Source: a virus
Direction: 5' to 3' (one strand)
DNA: 20,331 bases
Virus record (IMG/VR): IMGVR_UViG_3300035670_001478
Coordinates: 1 to 20,331 of that record
The translations under genes were made by a program, and so were the position numbers. Below, piece after piece: positions 1 to 8,317 of the stretch (positions are counted from its first letter, which is position 1; each line of letters begins with the position of its first letter). The notes under the pieces are model-generated. The model was not told where the DNA came from and did no database searches. It saw only the letters and a program-made list of their open reading frames with translations.

Positions 1-143
1 GCACCAGGTGTTTCGATGTGAACCCAGGCGACCGCATCGCCCAGGCCATGATCGTGCCCATCCCCCAGGTGGAGCTGGTCGAGGTGGACGAACTGACTGA
101 CACCGAGCGCGGCACAGGCGGACTGGGCAGCACGGGCCGATAA
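1..143 (+). CDS. dut: dUTPase, C-terminal fragment (5' end outside window)
   Basis: This is the end of a deoxyuridine triphosphatase, which hydrolyses dUTP to dUMP and pyrophosphate and keeps uracil out of newly made DNA. The first complete codon is at base 3, and 46 residues are visible before the TAA at 141-143. They contain the family's NPGDRIAQ segment with the following IVP strand. The last residues, RGTGGLGSTG, form the glycine-rich motif V that closes over the nucleotide in trimeric dUTPases. The end matches the usual C-terminus, so only the N-terminal part is missing. The gene is more GC-rich than the accessory genes that follow. It is directly followed by a promoter-like box and a candidate small RNA. 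Whether it belongs to the phage or to flanking DNA cannot be decided here, although phages often carry dut. Confidence 0.92.
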   Translation, partial: TRCFDVNPGDRIAQAMIVPIPQVELVEVDELTDTERGTGGLGSTGR

Positions 144-145
144 CC

Positions 146-159
146 GCTATACTCAACCC
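146..159 (+). promoter_or_regulatory. Candidate -10 promoter of the small RNA
   Basis: TATACT lies at 148-153, just after the dut stop codon. A start 7 bases downstream falls at G160, the first base of a hairpin-terminator transcript. Bases 145-163 match bases 8654-8672, in front of another apparent transcription start, at 16 of 19 positions. No good -35 box is visible, so the promoter is inferred from this similarity and from what follows it. Confidence 0.45.
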
Positions 160-236
160 GTGGCGTGTCATTCCCCTTCGCGCCACGCTTCCCCTTAAGC
201 CCCGTTGCTCAAAAGCAGAGCGCGGGGCTTTTTCTT
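160..236 (+). ncRNA. Candidate small regulatory RNA with two TTCCCCTT motifs
   Basis: A predicted transcript of about 77 bases lies in the gap between dut and the first accessory gene. Its 5' part forms a 7-bp perfect hairpin (159-165 with 181-187) with a 15-base loop, and its 3' part is an intrinsic terminator. The octamer TTCCCCTT appears at 171-178 in the loop and at 189-196 in the linker before the terminator. It is the exact complement of AAGGGGAA, the ribosome binding site before the genes at 354, 5414 and 5891; the gene at 7997 has a seven-base match. C-rich seeds in loops that pair with Shine-Dalgarno sites are known from other bacterial sRNAs, for example those of Staphylococcus aureus. 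The alternative is a leader peptide, because a GTG at the predicted +1 opens 12 codons ending at 198. Existence of the RNA is inferred from a promoter-like box, two hairpins and a terminator. Confidence 0.45.
197..236 (+). terminator. Intrinsic terminator of the small RNA
   Basis: AAGCCCCG (197-204) pairs with CGGGGCTT (223-230), followed by a T-rich tract broken by one C (to about 236). It ends transcription from dut and from the candidate small RNA. Confidence 0.85.
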
Positions 237-294: not shown

Positions 295-332
295 CTGATT
301 TATTAGCAAAATCAGTAGGTTAGTGGTAAAAT
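295..332 (+). promoter_or_regulatory. Inverted repeat and extended -10 before the gene at 354
   Basis: CTGATTT (295-301) and AAATCAG (309-315) form a perfect 7-bp inverted repeat around a 7-base centre. Twelve bases later TAAAAT (327-332) is preceded by TGG, giving an extended -10 box. The inverted repeat covers the -35 region and so is well placed as an operator. It could alternatively be a leader hairpin if transcription starts from copy 1 of the module upstream. Confidence 0.4.
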
Positions 333-4874: not shown

Positions 4875-4914
4875 ATGGCCGCTGCTGAGATCGGAAAGCT
4901 GATGGCGTAGTTAT

Positions 4915-4928
4915 GCTATACTTGGCGC
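4915..4928 (+). promoter_or_regulatory. Extended -10 before the candidate pseudoknot RNA
   Basis: TGC plus TATACT (4915-4922) is an extended -10 box with the same hexamer as the promoter at 148. Transcription would start near 4929-4930, just before the first arm of the folded RNA. No -35 box is evident. Confidence 0.45.
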
Positions 4929-5030
4929 TGTCGGAGTAGGAACCGATAGTCAGTGAAAGCCATTTCTCATGCATCCGCCCTCATTCTTGGGGGTTCCTAC
5001 CGGGTGCAGCAGAAATGGCTTTTTTGCTTT
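4929..5030 (+). ncRNA. Candidate structured RNA with interleaved helices (pseudoknot or switch)
   Basis: Two perfect helices are interleaved. GTAGGAACC (4936-4944) pairs with GGTTCCTAC (4992-5000) over 9 bp. AAAGCCATTTCT (4956-4967) pairs with AGAAATGGCTTT (5011-5022) over 12 bp. The 12-bp helix is topped by GCATCC (4971-4976) with GGGTGC (5002-5007), and a T-tract follows it. The order A-B-A'-B' is that of a pseudoknot in which the 5' tail pairs with the loop of the terminator hairpin. It could instead be a choice between two folds. It might be a free small RNA of about 100 bases, or an attenuator ahead of the structured region and the membrane-protein gene at 5414. No match to a named RNA family is recognised. 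Confidence 0.5.
4956..5030 (+). terminator. Long-stem intrinsic terminator
   Basis: The 12-bp stem 4956-4967/5011-5022 leads into six T residues (5020-5025) and GCTTT. The loop is long (43 bases) but partly closed by an inner stem. Confidence 0.65.
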
Positions 5031-5035
5031 CAGTT

Positions 5036-5402
5036 CCACAGCATCCCCAAAGCCAGAGAGGGACAGCTAGTAATCCAAGCACTAGCGATGCAGCCGACTT
5101 GATGATGCCAGTGCCGCATGACACCGCCGTAACATCATCGAGAGGCAACGGGGGAACCTTCCCAAGCCAACGCGCAAAGAGTCGTCCGAAAGGATGTGCA
5201 GCAACCGCGAGAAGGGGCGCATACAAGGCGCGTAATGCTGCAAACTGTCACTCTTGTATTGATGACAGTCCGATGATTTCCGAAGGTTTGTCCGCACTGG
5301 GTAACTTTAGAAGTCCGGCATAAGACTAAGACCACTTCTCTAGGTGGCTCTTAGGAGAGTTATGCCGATTCATAACCGAGGTTGAACCGCTTGGGTTTAG
5401 AT
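5036..5402 (+). ncRNA. Gene-free stretch with many potential RNA helices
   Basis: No convincing gene lies here. Complementary pairs visible in order: 5066-5071/5081-5086 (6 bp); 5098-5107/5133-5142 (10 bp with one wobble); 5183-5187/5192-5196 closing a GAAA tetraloop; 5217-5220/5228-5231 (4 bp); 5244-5250/5263-5269 (7 bp); and a composite hairpin 5317-5366 built from 5317-5323/5360-5366, 5326-5331/5349-5354 and 5332-5335/5344-5347. A last small stem at 5385-5388/5394-5397 lies just before the ribosome site of the gene at 5414. The density suggests a folded RNA or a long structured leader. A decayed region is the other possibility. No named family is recognised. Confidence 0.4.
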
Positions 5403-5413
5403 AAGGGGAAAAC

Positions 5414-5821
5414 ATGGCAATATCACCTGCAATCATGGTAAGCAACACATCCGGAGGCGCATCGTCGAACAATGCGCTGCACAAGGCGCTAGTCGAGGCG
5501 CAGTGCAATCTGTGGATGGAGCATTACAAGCACTCAACGGCTACTGTTGAGCAAAAGCAGTTCTATGCTTCTTGCGTGCGGCAAATCCACCCGATCCAGT
5601 CACCATCACCGACGATAGAGGCAAAGATGGCTGTGGGCGCGATCTTGGTGCTGGCCTTGCTGTGCATTGCAGTATCTGGATACAAGACCAAAAAATCACT
5701 AGGCAGCTTCTTTGGTGTGGCAGAGTGCATCGGAGCGGTGGTTTTCGGCTTGATTGCGTGGCTAGTGATCCTGTGTGCCGTCGGCCTTGTGATATGCGCG
5801 TTTAAATTTTTCACCGCCTAG
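5414..5821 (+). CDS. Small membrane protein with two transmembrane segments (135 aa)
   Basis: The ribosome site is AAGGGGAA (5403-5410), the same unusual site as the genes at 354 and 5891. The first 70 residues are soluble, with AQCNLWMEHYKHSTATVEQKQFYASCVRQIHP as a likely helical region. Two hydrophobic segments follow at about 73-90 and 105-131, joined by a short basic loop (YKTKKSLGS). It is cysteine-rich, with six cysteines. The topology could suit a holin or a superinfection-exclusion protein, but no family signature is recognised and the position is far from any lysis genes. Its stop codon abuts promoter module copy 3. Confidence 0.7.
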   Translation: MAISPAIMVSNTSGGASSNNALHKALVEAQCNLWMEHYKHSTATVEQKQFYASCVRQIHPIQSPSPTIEAKMAVGAILVLALLCIAVSGYKTKKSLGSFFGVAECIGAVVFGLIAWLVILCAVGLVICAFKFFTA

Positions 5822-5863: not shown

Positions 5864-5890
5864 AGAGGCACTGAAACGAAAGGGGAAACA

Positions 5891-6049
5891 GTGAAATACA
5901 TTTACGCATCAGCAACAGTCATATTGGCATTATTTCTTGCTGTACTTTTGTTTGACGCTAATCCAAAGCAAGCCATGTTTCTGTCACTTCTCCAGTTGGG
6001 CGCAATCCTACTTGTGTGGATCTTTGAAGAAGCAAAGGGGGATAAATGA
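5891..6049 (+). CDS. Very small membrane protein, GTG start (52 aa)
   Basis: The frame opens with GTG five bases after the AAGGGG core of AAGGGGAA (5880-5887) and behind promoter module copy 3. It ends with a four-base ATGA overlap with the H-NS-like gene. The 52-residue product has two hydrophobic helices, about 4-21 (IYASATVILALFLAVLL) and 29-45 (MFLSLLQLGAILLVWIF), with a short polar turn FDANPKQA and an acidic-basic tail. It has no recognised family. Promoter, ribosome site and overlap together make it a credible gene even though it is short and begins with GTG. Confidence 0.65.
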   Translation: MKYIYASATVILALFLAVLLFDANPKQAMFLSLLQLGAILLVWIFEEAKGDK

Positions 6050-6315
6050 AAACCTACCAAGAGTTGATCGTAGAGCGCGCCGAGCTAGACGCGCGCATTC
6101 ACGCAGAGCGCAAGGTTGCGAAGCGTGAGCTAAAGAACCAGATGCTTGTGATGATCCACGATGCTGGATTCCAAGCTGATGATTTCTTCAAGGCCACCAA
6201 GGAAGTGCGCGCAAAAGCCAAGCCAAAGCACCTGAACAGCAAGACAGGCGCGACGTGGTGCGGGCGCGGCAAGAAGCCTTTGTGGATCGGCACAGACGTG
6301 CATGTTGTTTTGTGA
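6046..6315 (+). CDS. H-NS-like nucleoid-associated protein (89 aa)
   Basis: H-NS proteins bind AT-rich DNA and silence foreign genes. The C-terminal residues 62-80 (HLNSKTGATWCGRGKKPLW) follow the pattern N-x-x-T-G-x-T-W-x-G-R-G-x-x-P-x-W typical of beta-proteobacterial H-NS relatives (Bv3F/BpH3 type), with W-C-G-R-G as the DNA-contacting loop. Residues 1-36 form a helix rich in E, R and K (ELIVERAELDARIHAERKVAKREL) suitable for dimerisation, and residues 51-61 are a basic linker. At 89 residues it is slightly shorter than typical family members. The usual serine in W-S-G-R-G is a cysteine here. It is co-transcribed with a tiny membrane protein. Likely roles are silencing of phage or host genes, or interference with host H-NS; which one is inference. 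Confidence 0.82.
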   Translation: MKTYQELIVERAELDARIHAERKVAKRELKNQMLVMIHDAGFQADDFFKATKEVRAKAKPKHLNSKTGATWCGRGKKPLWIGTDVHVVL

Positions 6316-6756: not shown

Positions 6757-7097
6757 TGAGCACTGAGAAAGAGCTGATGAAGCTGGTGGCCGACTATGGC
6801 AAGGAGTGCATTTCGGCTGGCATTGCAGAGCTAAACAGCAGCGATGATGTGAAGCAACGCATGGCATCCGATGTACGCAAGTCGCATGATGCGCTGACAG
6901 CACGCCTGCGCGCCATTCTGACCGAGCTGGAGGCAGCGCGCGAGGATGTGGCGCTTGTAGACTGGCTGGAGCAATCCAAGGAACATCATGGGTTTTGCGG
7001 CACCGGCTACGGAGAATATCGCTACTATGCTGGTCAATGTGATGGCTGGGGTTCTGTCAGGAAAGTAATCGAGGCCGCGCGCAAGGGGGAAGCATGA
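6756..7097 (+). CDS. Hypothetical phage protein (113 aa)
   Basis: ATG 6756 is preferred over an in-frame GTG one codon earlier because GGAGGT (6744-6749) is well spaced and the TGATG overlap is typical. The product is mostly helical, with a long amphipathic stretch DDVKQRMASDVRKSHDALTARLRAILTELEAAREDVALVDWLEQ of coiled-coil type. A glycine/aromatic-rich end follows (GFCGTGYGEYRYYAGQCDGWGSVRKVIEAA). That second part resembles short 'D..L..W...' segments in other phage accessory proteins. Function unknown. Overlaps the NinX-like gene by four bases. Confidence 0.72.
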   Translation: MSTEKELMKLVADYGKECISAGIAELNSSDDVKQRMASDVRKSHDALTARLRAILTELEAAREDVALVDWLEQSKEHHGFCGTGYGEYRYYAGQCDGWGSVRKVIEAARKGEA

Positions 7098-7477
7098 CCA
7101 TCATCAAAACCGAACACCTGACAGGTGCGCAGCTCGACTGGGCTGTGGCAAAGGCTGAAGGCATCGCAACCATTCAGTGCCTGCCTAACAAATACCCGCA
7201 CATCGTGCGCCGTGCTGACAACGGGAAGAACTGGCACCCCAGCACAGGATGGACCCAGGGCGGCCCGATCATCGAGCGTGAAGGAATAAGTGTCAGCCGT
7301 TTTAACGACGAGTGCATTGATGTGACAGAGTCCTGCCGCTGGTTTACTAGCACGAAGAACGGAGACTGCTGTGACGAAAACGCAAAAATGGGACCAACGC
7401 CGCTGATTGCCGCAATGCGCTGCTTTGTTGCTGCGAAGCTGGGCGACAGTGTTGACGTACCGGAGGAGTTGGCATGA
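7094..7477 (+). CDS. NinX-like protein, DUF2591 family (127 aa)
   Basis: The signature segments of this phage family are present in order: LTGAQLDWAVAKAEG (residues 9-23), WHPSTGWTQGGPIIEREGIS (47-66) and GPTPLIAAMRCFVAAKLGD (101-119). The family is common in P22-like and other temperate phages, where its biochemical role is unknown. Length is normal. The ribosome site is AAGGGGGAA, and the gene is coupled by ATGA overlaps to both neighbours, so it belongs to the operon that starts at 5891. I am confident of the family but not of any function. Confidence 0.85.
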   Translation: MTIIKTEHLTGAQLDWAVAKAEGIATIQCLPNKYPHIVRRADNGKNWHPSTGWTQGGPIIEREGISVSRFNDECIDVTESCRWFTSTKNGDCCDENAKMGPTPLIAAMRCFVAAKLGDSVDVPEELA

Positions 7478-7975: not shown

Positions 7976-7996
7976 TGAGGCTGAAAGGGGATAGAT

Positions 7997-8317
7997 ATGA
8001 GCACATATAGCAAAGCAAAATTCACTCAGGGGCCTTGGGCGATTGAGTATGACAACTGCGACGCTGGCACTTGCCAGTGGTATTCGGTTGGGCCTGCAAA
8101 GGTCGAAGTCTCTTATAACTTAACAGCATTGCAGGATGATGAGTGGAAAGCCAACGCACGCCTGATCGCCGCTGCTCCGGAGCTGCTGGAGGCTTTGCAA
8201 GAATGTGTAGAGCTTCTAGAGTTTTTGTCGCCTGAAGTTCGCGGAGGCTATTCGCCAGATGGGGCTTATGCCAAAGCTAATTCAGCCATCGCCAAAGCAC
8301 TAGGAGGCGCAGCATGA
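7997..8317 (+). CDS. Hypothetical phage protein with 'ANARLIAAAPELLEAL' motif (106 aa)
   Basis: The N-terminus KFTQGPWAIEYD and the central ANARLIAAAPELLEALQECVELLE (about residues 50-74) are the two conserved blocks of a very common small phage protein whose function is unknown. The ribosome site is AAAGGGGATAG, matching seven bases of the TTCCCCTT motif of the candidate RNA at 160-236. It is the first gene behind promoter module copy 4 and is followed by two more genes in ATGA overlap. Two cysteines (DAGTCQW, LQECVELL) are present. There is no sign of membrane insertion. Confidence 0.8.
   Translation: MSTYSKAKFTQGPWAIEYDNCDAGTCQWYSVGPAKVEVSYNLTALQDDEWKANARLIAAAPELLEALQECVELLEFLSPEVRGGYSPDGAYAKANSAIAKALGGAA

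Follow-up and report, generated by a model that had tools for sequence, protein, structure and literature searches.

A candidate phage small RNA with two exposed seeds complementary to AAGGGG-type ribosome sites of its own genome

We describe a predicted small RNA of ~78 nt, encoded on the plus strand at positions 159-237 of a viral contig, in which one octamer occurs twice in exposed positions and is complementary to Shine-Dalgarno sites of the same phage. It is hypothesized that this RNA blocks the AAGGGG sites of about six accessory genes carried by the phage itself, a proposal to which we give an even chance. A discrete small RNA with two seeds directed against ribosome sites is well supported by the predicted anatomy, together with an 80-nt identity to a second viral contig (L002) and the precedent of the NmsR, double-hairpin and sX13 RNAs. 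From its sequence, the unit is likely a phage-borne member of this known kind of RNA. A multi-gene regulon is the novel part of the hypothesis; that an RNA with a duplicated octamer would coordinate at least six accessory genes, through an AAGGGG code that structural genes avoid, is rather doubtful at present and is put forward tentatively.

The window, by which we mean the whole 20,331-nt stretch of DNA analysed, is a 20-kb virus contig, a fragment whose opening lies inside dut (dut extends to 143). Its terminase and capsid share 67-80% identity with those of ES18-like group phages of Pseudomonas, Klebsiella, Enterobacter and Salmonella. A Burkholderiales host is plausible, because an H-NS-type protein is encoded at 6046 and genome relatives are found in Bordetella and Corticimicrobacter. 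The gap after dut (144-353) is the site of the promoter-terminator unit, of which 159-237 is unannotated in the phage.

Anatomy and conservation of the predicted RNA

The RNA from 159-237 was predicted to fold with a minimum free energy (MFE) of -37.6 kcal/mol (z = -5.6 relative to shuffled sequences). At its 5' end is a predicted hairpin (159-187) with an 11-nt loop, UCAUUCCCCUU (168-178); the sequence-only reading had described a perfect 7-bp hairpin, but the predicted stem (159-167/179-187) has nine base pairs, one of them G-U. The two copies of the DNA octamer TTCCCCTT are positioned as that reading had them, at 171-178 in the loop and 189-196 in the linker. In the RNA these form seeds 1 and 2, both UUCCCCUU, with probabilities of being unpaired of 0.97 and 0.999, respectively. 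MFE pairing and sequence also agree with the terminator, predicted as a strong intrinsic stem-loop followed by a U-rich tail at 197-237. The promoter-like TATACT fared less clearly. It is present at 148-153 and is kept in L002, and with TGGGCA (124-129) and an 18-nt spacer it makes up a candidate promoter (124-153, plus strand) overlapping the end of dut, but this is a weak -35 element, and promoter-like sites, taken together, are at background level in the region (7 vs. 5.9). A short peptide frame at 165-287 was rejected as an unlikely gene, starting as it does within the hairpin and crossing the terminator.

Exact and gapped pattern searches of viral contigs yielded one homolog, on L002. This contig represents a different phage type, in which the genes for Baseplate_J, DUF2612, tail fibre and endolysin lie on the opposite strand. 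The two sequences are identical over 80 consecutive bases (158-237), and the end of this block coincides with the predicted transcript end; elsewhere, the dut body is 62% identical and 239-343 is 86.8% identical. Differing columns numbered 0 of 79 in the unit and 14 of 106 in the flank (Fisher p ~ 0.0006, computed on a flank of 239-339). The next gene in L002 retains its AAGGGGAA site. Selection on 158-237 is likely from this pattern of identity, and a recent exchange could also account for it; exchange has played a part, since near-identical blocks shared by the window and L002 also lie inside gene 354 (456-625). The middle of that gene (431-620) is 94% identical to L002 DNA and both of its ends are 45-50% identical; gene 354 is, judging by this alignment, a mosaic with an exchanged central block. 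The L002 comparison covers the first target, gene 354. It had also been suggested that seeds and sites might co-vary among related phages. One contig, L084, has a gene 354 homolog and lacks the RNA, with neither TTCCCC nor AAGGGG nearby, which is consistent with co-variation, but a single informative locus is too few to count.

Thirteen other loci retrieved from viral contigs with the gapped pattern were discarded as probable chance matches. The unit was not found in a pattern scan of genome contigs, and it is absent from the terminase relatives and dut relatives examined. Searches by blastn returned weak partial matches among phages (E of 0.2 or worse) and no match to the unit among plasmids or in E. 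coli. No relative was found in 399 Burkholderiales genomes searched by DNA and with a covariance model (R1); the best R1 match in this set, L213, is a double hairpin whose neighbouring gene is unrelated, and it was rejected.

Matching ribosome sites and chance expectation

The exact complement of the seeds, AAGGGGAA, is found at 344-351, 5403-5410 and 5880-5887, as first noticed, and the additional copy reported within the rha coding region (2550-2557) is indeed there. Counting both strands, there are six matches against 0.46 expected by chance. The candidate targets, all on the plus strand, begin with the AAGGGGAA site of gene 354-755 (344-351), which is conserved in L002 (703-710). The others comprise the TAAGGGGAA site (5402-5410) of gene 5414-5821, whose product is a membrane protein with a weak Colicin V production match; the AAGGGGAA site (5880-5887) of gene 5891-6049, which encodes a 52-aa hydrophobic protein; the AAGGGGGAU site (6035-6043) of gene 6046-6315, itself thus a candidate target, from which the phage would make a protein carrying an H-NS C-terminal DNA-binding motif (PF00816); the AGGGGGAAG site (7084-7092) of gene 7094-7477 (phrog_4389); and the AAGGGGA site of gene 7997-8317 (phrog_1273), confirmed at 7985-7991. 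Genes 6046 and 7094 had been regarded as near matches. Sites are present at both, but near match understates them: AAGGGGG can pair over nine bases with the RNA, and six candidate targets are therefore counted. The proposed regulon would include an H-NS-like silencer alongside membrane proteins and uncharacterized products.

A pairing scan against the start regions, corrected for accessibility on both sides, set these six genes apart as the top group, with energies of -10.3 to -7.1 kcal/mol. The next best starts (984 and 752) reached about -6 kcal/mol and did not use the CCCCUU core. Duplex energies of the whole RNA calculated without accessibility were discarded, as they ignore self-folding.

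Seed matches were evaluated against composition-matched shuffled seeds (5000 trials), and these tests followed the noticing of the pattern. Exact 8-mer matches occur at the starts of four genes versus 0.24 for shuffled seeds, a value reached in 13 of the 5000 trials. The 7-mer matches are borderline (148/5000) and the 6-mer matches are not significant (784/5000). Duplex energies are not significant either, with ~14-15% of shuffled C-rich seeds equalling the observed value; a C-rich loop would thus pair with G-rich sites anyway, and it is the exactness of the matches that stands out.

The worry that G-rich ribosome sites are simply a phage habit did not hold up in related phages or in the Burkholderiales sampled. 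With one automatic gene caller applied to all three sets of starts, AAGGGG was present at 5 of 25 called starts in the window (20%), compared with 14 of 441 in terminase relatives (3.2%; Fisher p 0.002) and 3 of 334 in Burkholderiales genomes (twenty stretches of 20 kb each; 0.9%; Fisher p 5e-5), which may not be the host's. A host with unusual ribosome sites may lie behind this enrichment. Within the phage, AAGGGG sites precede 6 of 19 accessory genes and none of 15 structural and packaging genes (p 0.02, on a hand-made gene list).

Precedents and proposed mode of action

No Rfam family matched the RNA at gathering thresholds. The sub-threshold list includes several terminator-ended RNAs with C-rich loops: Scr3202, sX13, anti-hemB and RF02278. 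Scores were 11.8 bits for RF02278 and 15.0 bits for sX13 (RF02232), each against a gathering score of 50 bits, and 14.6 bits over the full model for anti-hemB (RF02837) against 49.5; the C4 antisense RNA (RF01695) gave no covariance-model match at E up to 10.

The closest parallels are in layout. In NmsR RNAs, two anti-Shine-Dalgarno stretches, one in a loop and the other in a linker, share their mRNA targets (PMC5362039). The phage RNA is predicted to share this arrangement of two exposed seeds complementary to the Shine-Dalgarno sites of one gene set; unlike it, NmsR A and B of Neisseria meningitidis are chromosomal tandem siblings with three stem-loops and metabolic targets, and no Rfam-level similarity between them and the phage RNA was seen. 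Burkholderiales double-hairpin RNAs have CU-rich stretches predicted to pair over ribosome sites, and overexpression of one, ncS27, slows growth (PMC5688073). In the corresponding family of "toxic small RNAs" (RF02278, Betaproteobacteria toxic sRNA), two hairpins are combined with an unpaired CU-rich anti-Shine-Dalgarno stretch. Both features are predicted in the phage-borne RNA, whereas the family core is CUCCUCC-rich and unlike it. Among 250 Burkholderiales genomes sampled, 158 carry RF02278 matches, with up to nine copies per genome. The sX13 RNA of Xanthomonas represses mRNAs with G-rich motifs near the start; its action is Hfq-independent and requires both its CCCC loops and the GGGG of the targets (PMC3771888). 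It resembles the phage RNA in opposing C-rich loops to G-rich motifs near starts, and differs in being chromosomal, 115 nt long and equipped with three C-rich loops.

Two comparable RNAs come from phages. StxS is a ~74-nt RNA of Shiga-toxin lambdoid phages, located between a promoter and an intrinsic terminator, that targets the stx1B site (PMC12101431, PMC7873438). Like the RNA predicted here, it belongs to a promoter-terminator unit and is complementary to a ribosome site of a phage gene lying downstream; StxS differs in having one known phage target and in being processed by RNase E, and it originates at the late promoter after Q, an origin considered below for the present unit. C4 of P1/P7 is a phage antisense RNA whose loops are complementary to a phage ribosome-site region (PMC12197685), and it differs in having one target, ant.

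In the explanation we favor, a phage RNA of ~78 nt would start at a promoter of its own, located where dut ends, and be stopped by the intrinsic terminator. The exposed UUCCCCUU seeds in loop and linker would base-pair with AAGGGG-type Shine-Dalgarno sites and exclude ribosomes from them, lowering translation of the accessory genes 354, 5414, 5891, 6046, 7094 and 7997, all of them the phage's own. This mode of action would be like that of the NmsR, double-hairpin and sX13 RNAs, with StxS as the phage example. Transcription, pairing in the cell, repression and the relevance of the individual targets are what we infer from the features described above. The original suggestion that one RNA tunes several accessory genes is partly upheld: anatomy, L002 and precedent speak for the two-seed RNA, but the homolog covers the first target only. 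If true, the model would explain how phage accessory genes stay quiet in the lysogen, and the pairing of seed with Shine-Dalgarno site would offer a sequence rule by which RNAs of this sort could be sought in phage genomes that lack annotation. In the literature consulted, StxS (on stx1B) and C4 (on ant) have one known phage target each, compared with the many proposed here.

Alternative explanations and other candidate non-coding elements

The unit could instead be the terminated leader of a phage late promoter (pR'-tR'), and the RNA a by-product or a by-product turned regulator. Polymerase would start after the early genes and stop at the terminator, and a Q-type antiterminator, needed by the late genes, would let the terminase and head genes be read. 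Terminated leaders at early/late junctions are common in phages and need not act in trans, which counts against a trans-acting RNA. In terminase relatives, a comparable place 1.5-2.7 kb ahead of terL does carry a hairpin and a terminator preceded by a promoter-like stretch, and in two of them (L039 and L040) this arrangement directly follows a Phage_antitermQ gene; the model matches in these relatives are weak, however (10-22 bits), with most of the score coming from the terminator, and the upstream gene in the window, which starts inside dut, is dut and not Q. In L002 the unit precedes a single gene and, with the genes for tail, baseplate and endolysin encoded on the opposite strand, cannot be a late leader; this speaks for a unit that can occur independently of late control. 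A late leader also leaves two seeds matching six ribosome sites without a reason, and we consider it unlikely. StxS, a 74-nt RNA of such a late-promoter origin, acts on the ribosome site of stx1B to repress that gene (PMC12101431, PMC7873438); being both terminated leader and repressor, it makes a leader origin compatible with small-RNA action.

That the region is an ordinary dut terminator with an extra hairpin, its C-rich and G-rich matches due to chance, seems quite unlikely. In ~15% of trials shuffled seeds pair as strongly as was observed, the 6-mer matches are not significant and the pattern was picked after inspection. Against these points stand the exact 8-mer matches and the AAGGGG enrichment, which are improbable by chance, and the two identical exposed octamers and the conserved block fitting the transcript exactly would lack an explanation. 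Action in cis is very unlikely in our estimation. Here, UUCCCCUU in a terminator read-through RNA would fold back on gene 354, mask its AAGGGGAA site and silence it, such that only transcripts from a local promoter, which lack the seeds, would be translated. Folding of the read-through RNA does pair a seed with the gene 354 site, both in the window (seed 1) and in L002 (seed 2), and a candidate promoter of gene 354 is located at 303-332 (plus strand; TTAGCA-18-TAAAAT, with TG before the -10), of which the promoter-like stretch 305-332 is identical in L002. The strong terminator would nevertheless limit read-through, and neither the seed duplication nor the other five sites would be explained.

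In the terminase relatives, the stretch that follows the gene at the early/late junction was located in L039 (3315-3859), L040 (7368-7912), L016 (7258-8048), L065 (7271-7909) and L073 (7708-8537). In the four scanned, the junction gene is Q (L039 and L040) or belongs to unknown phage families (L016 and L065). The hairpins found there are not alike in sequence, and StxS-like leader RNAs may be among them.

A second non-coding candidate is situated at 4912-5032, within a 539-nt gap (4875-5413). It consists of TATGCTATACT followed by a strong hairpin ending in six T, and its arrangement had no Rfam or viral match. TATGCTATACT contains GCTATACT, as is found before the first RNA. Positions 4936-4944 are complementary to 4992-5000 and interleave with a stem formed by 4957-4967 and 5011-5020, which suggests an alternative or pseudoknotted fold.
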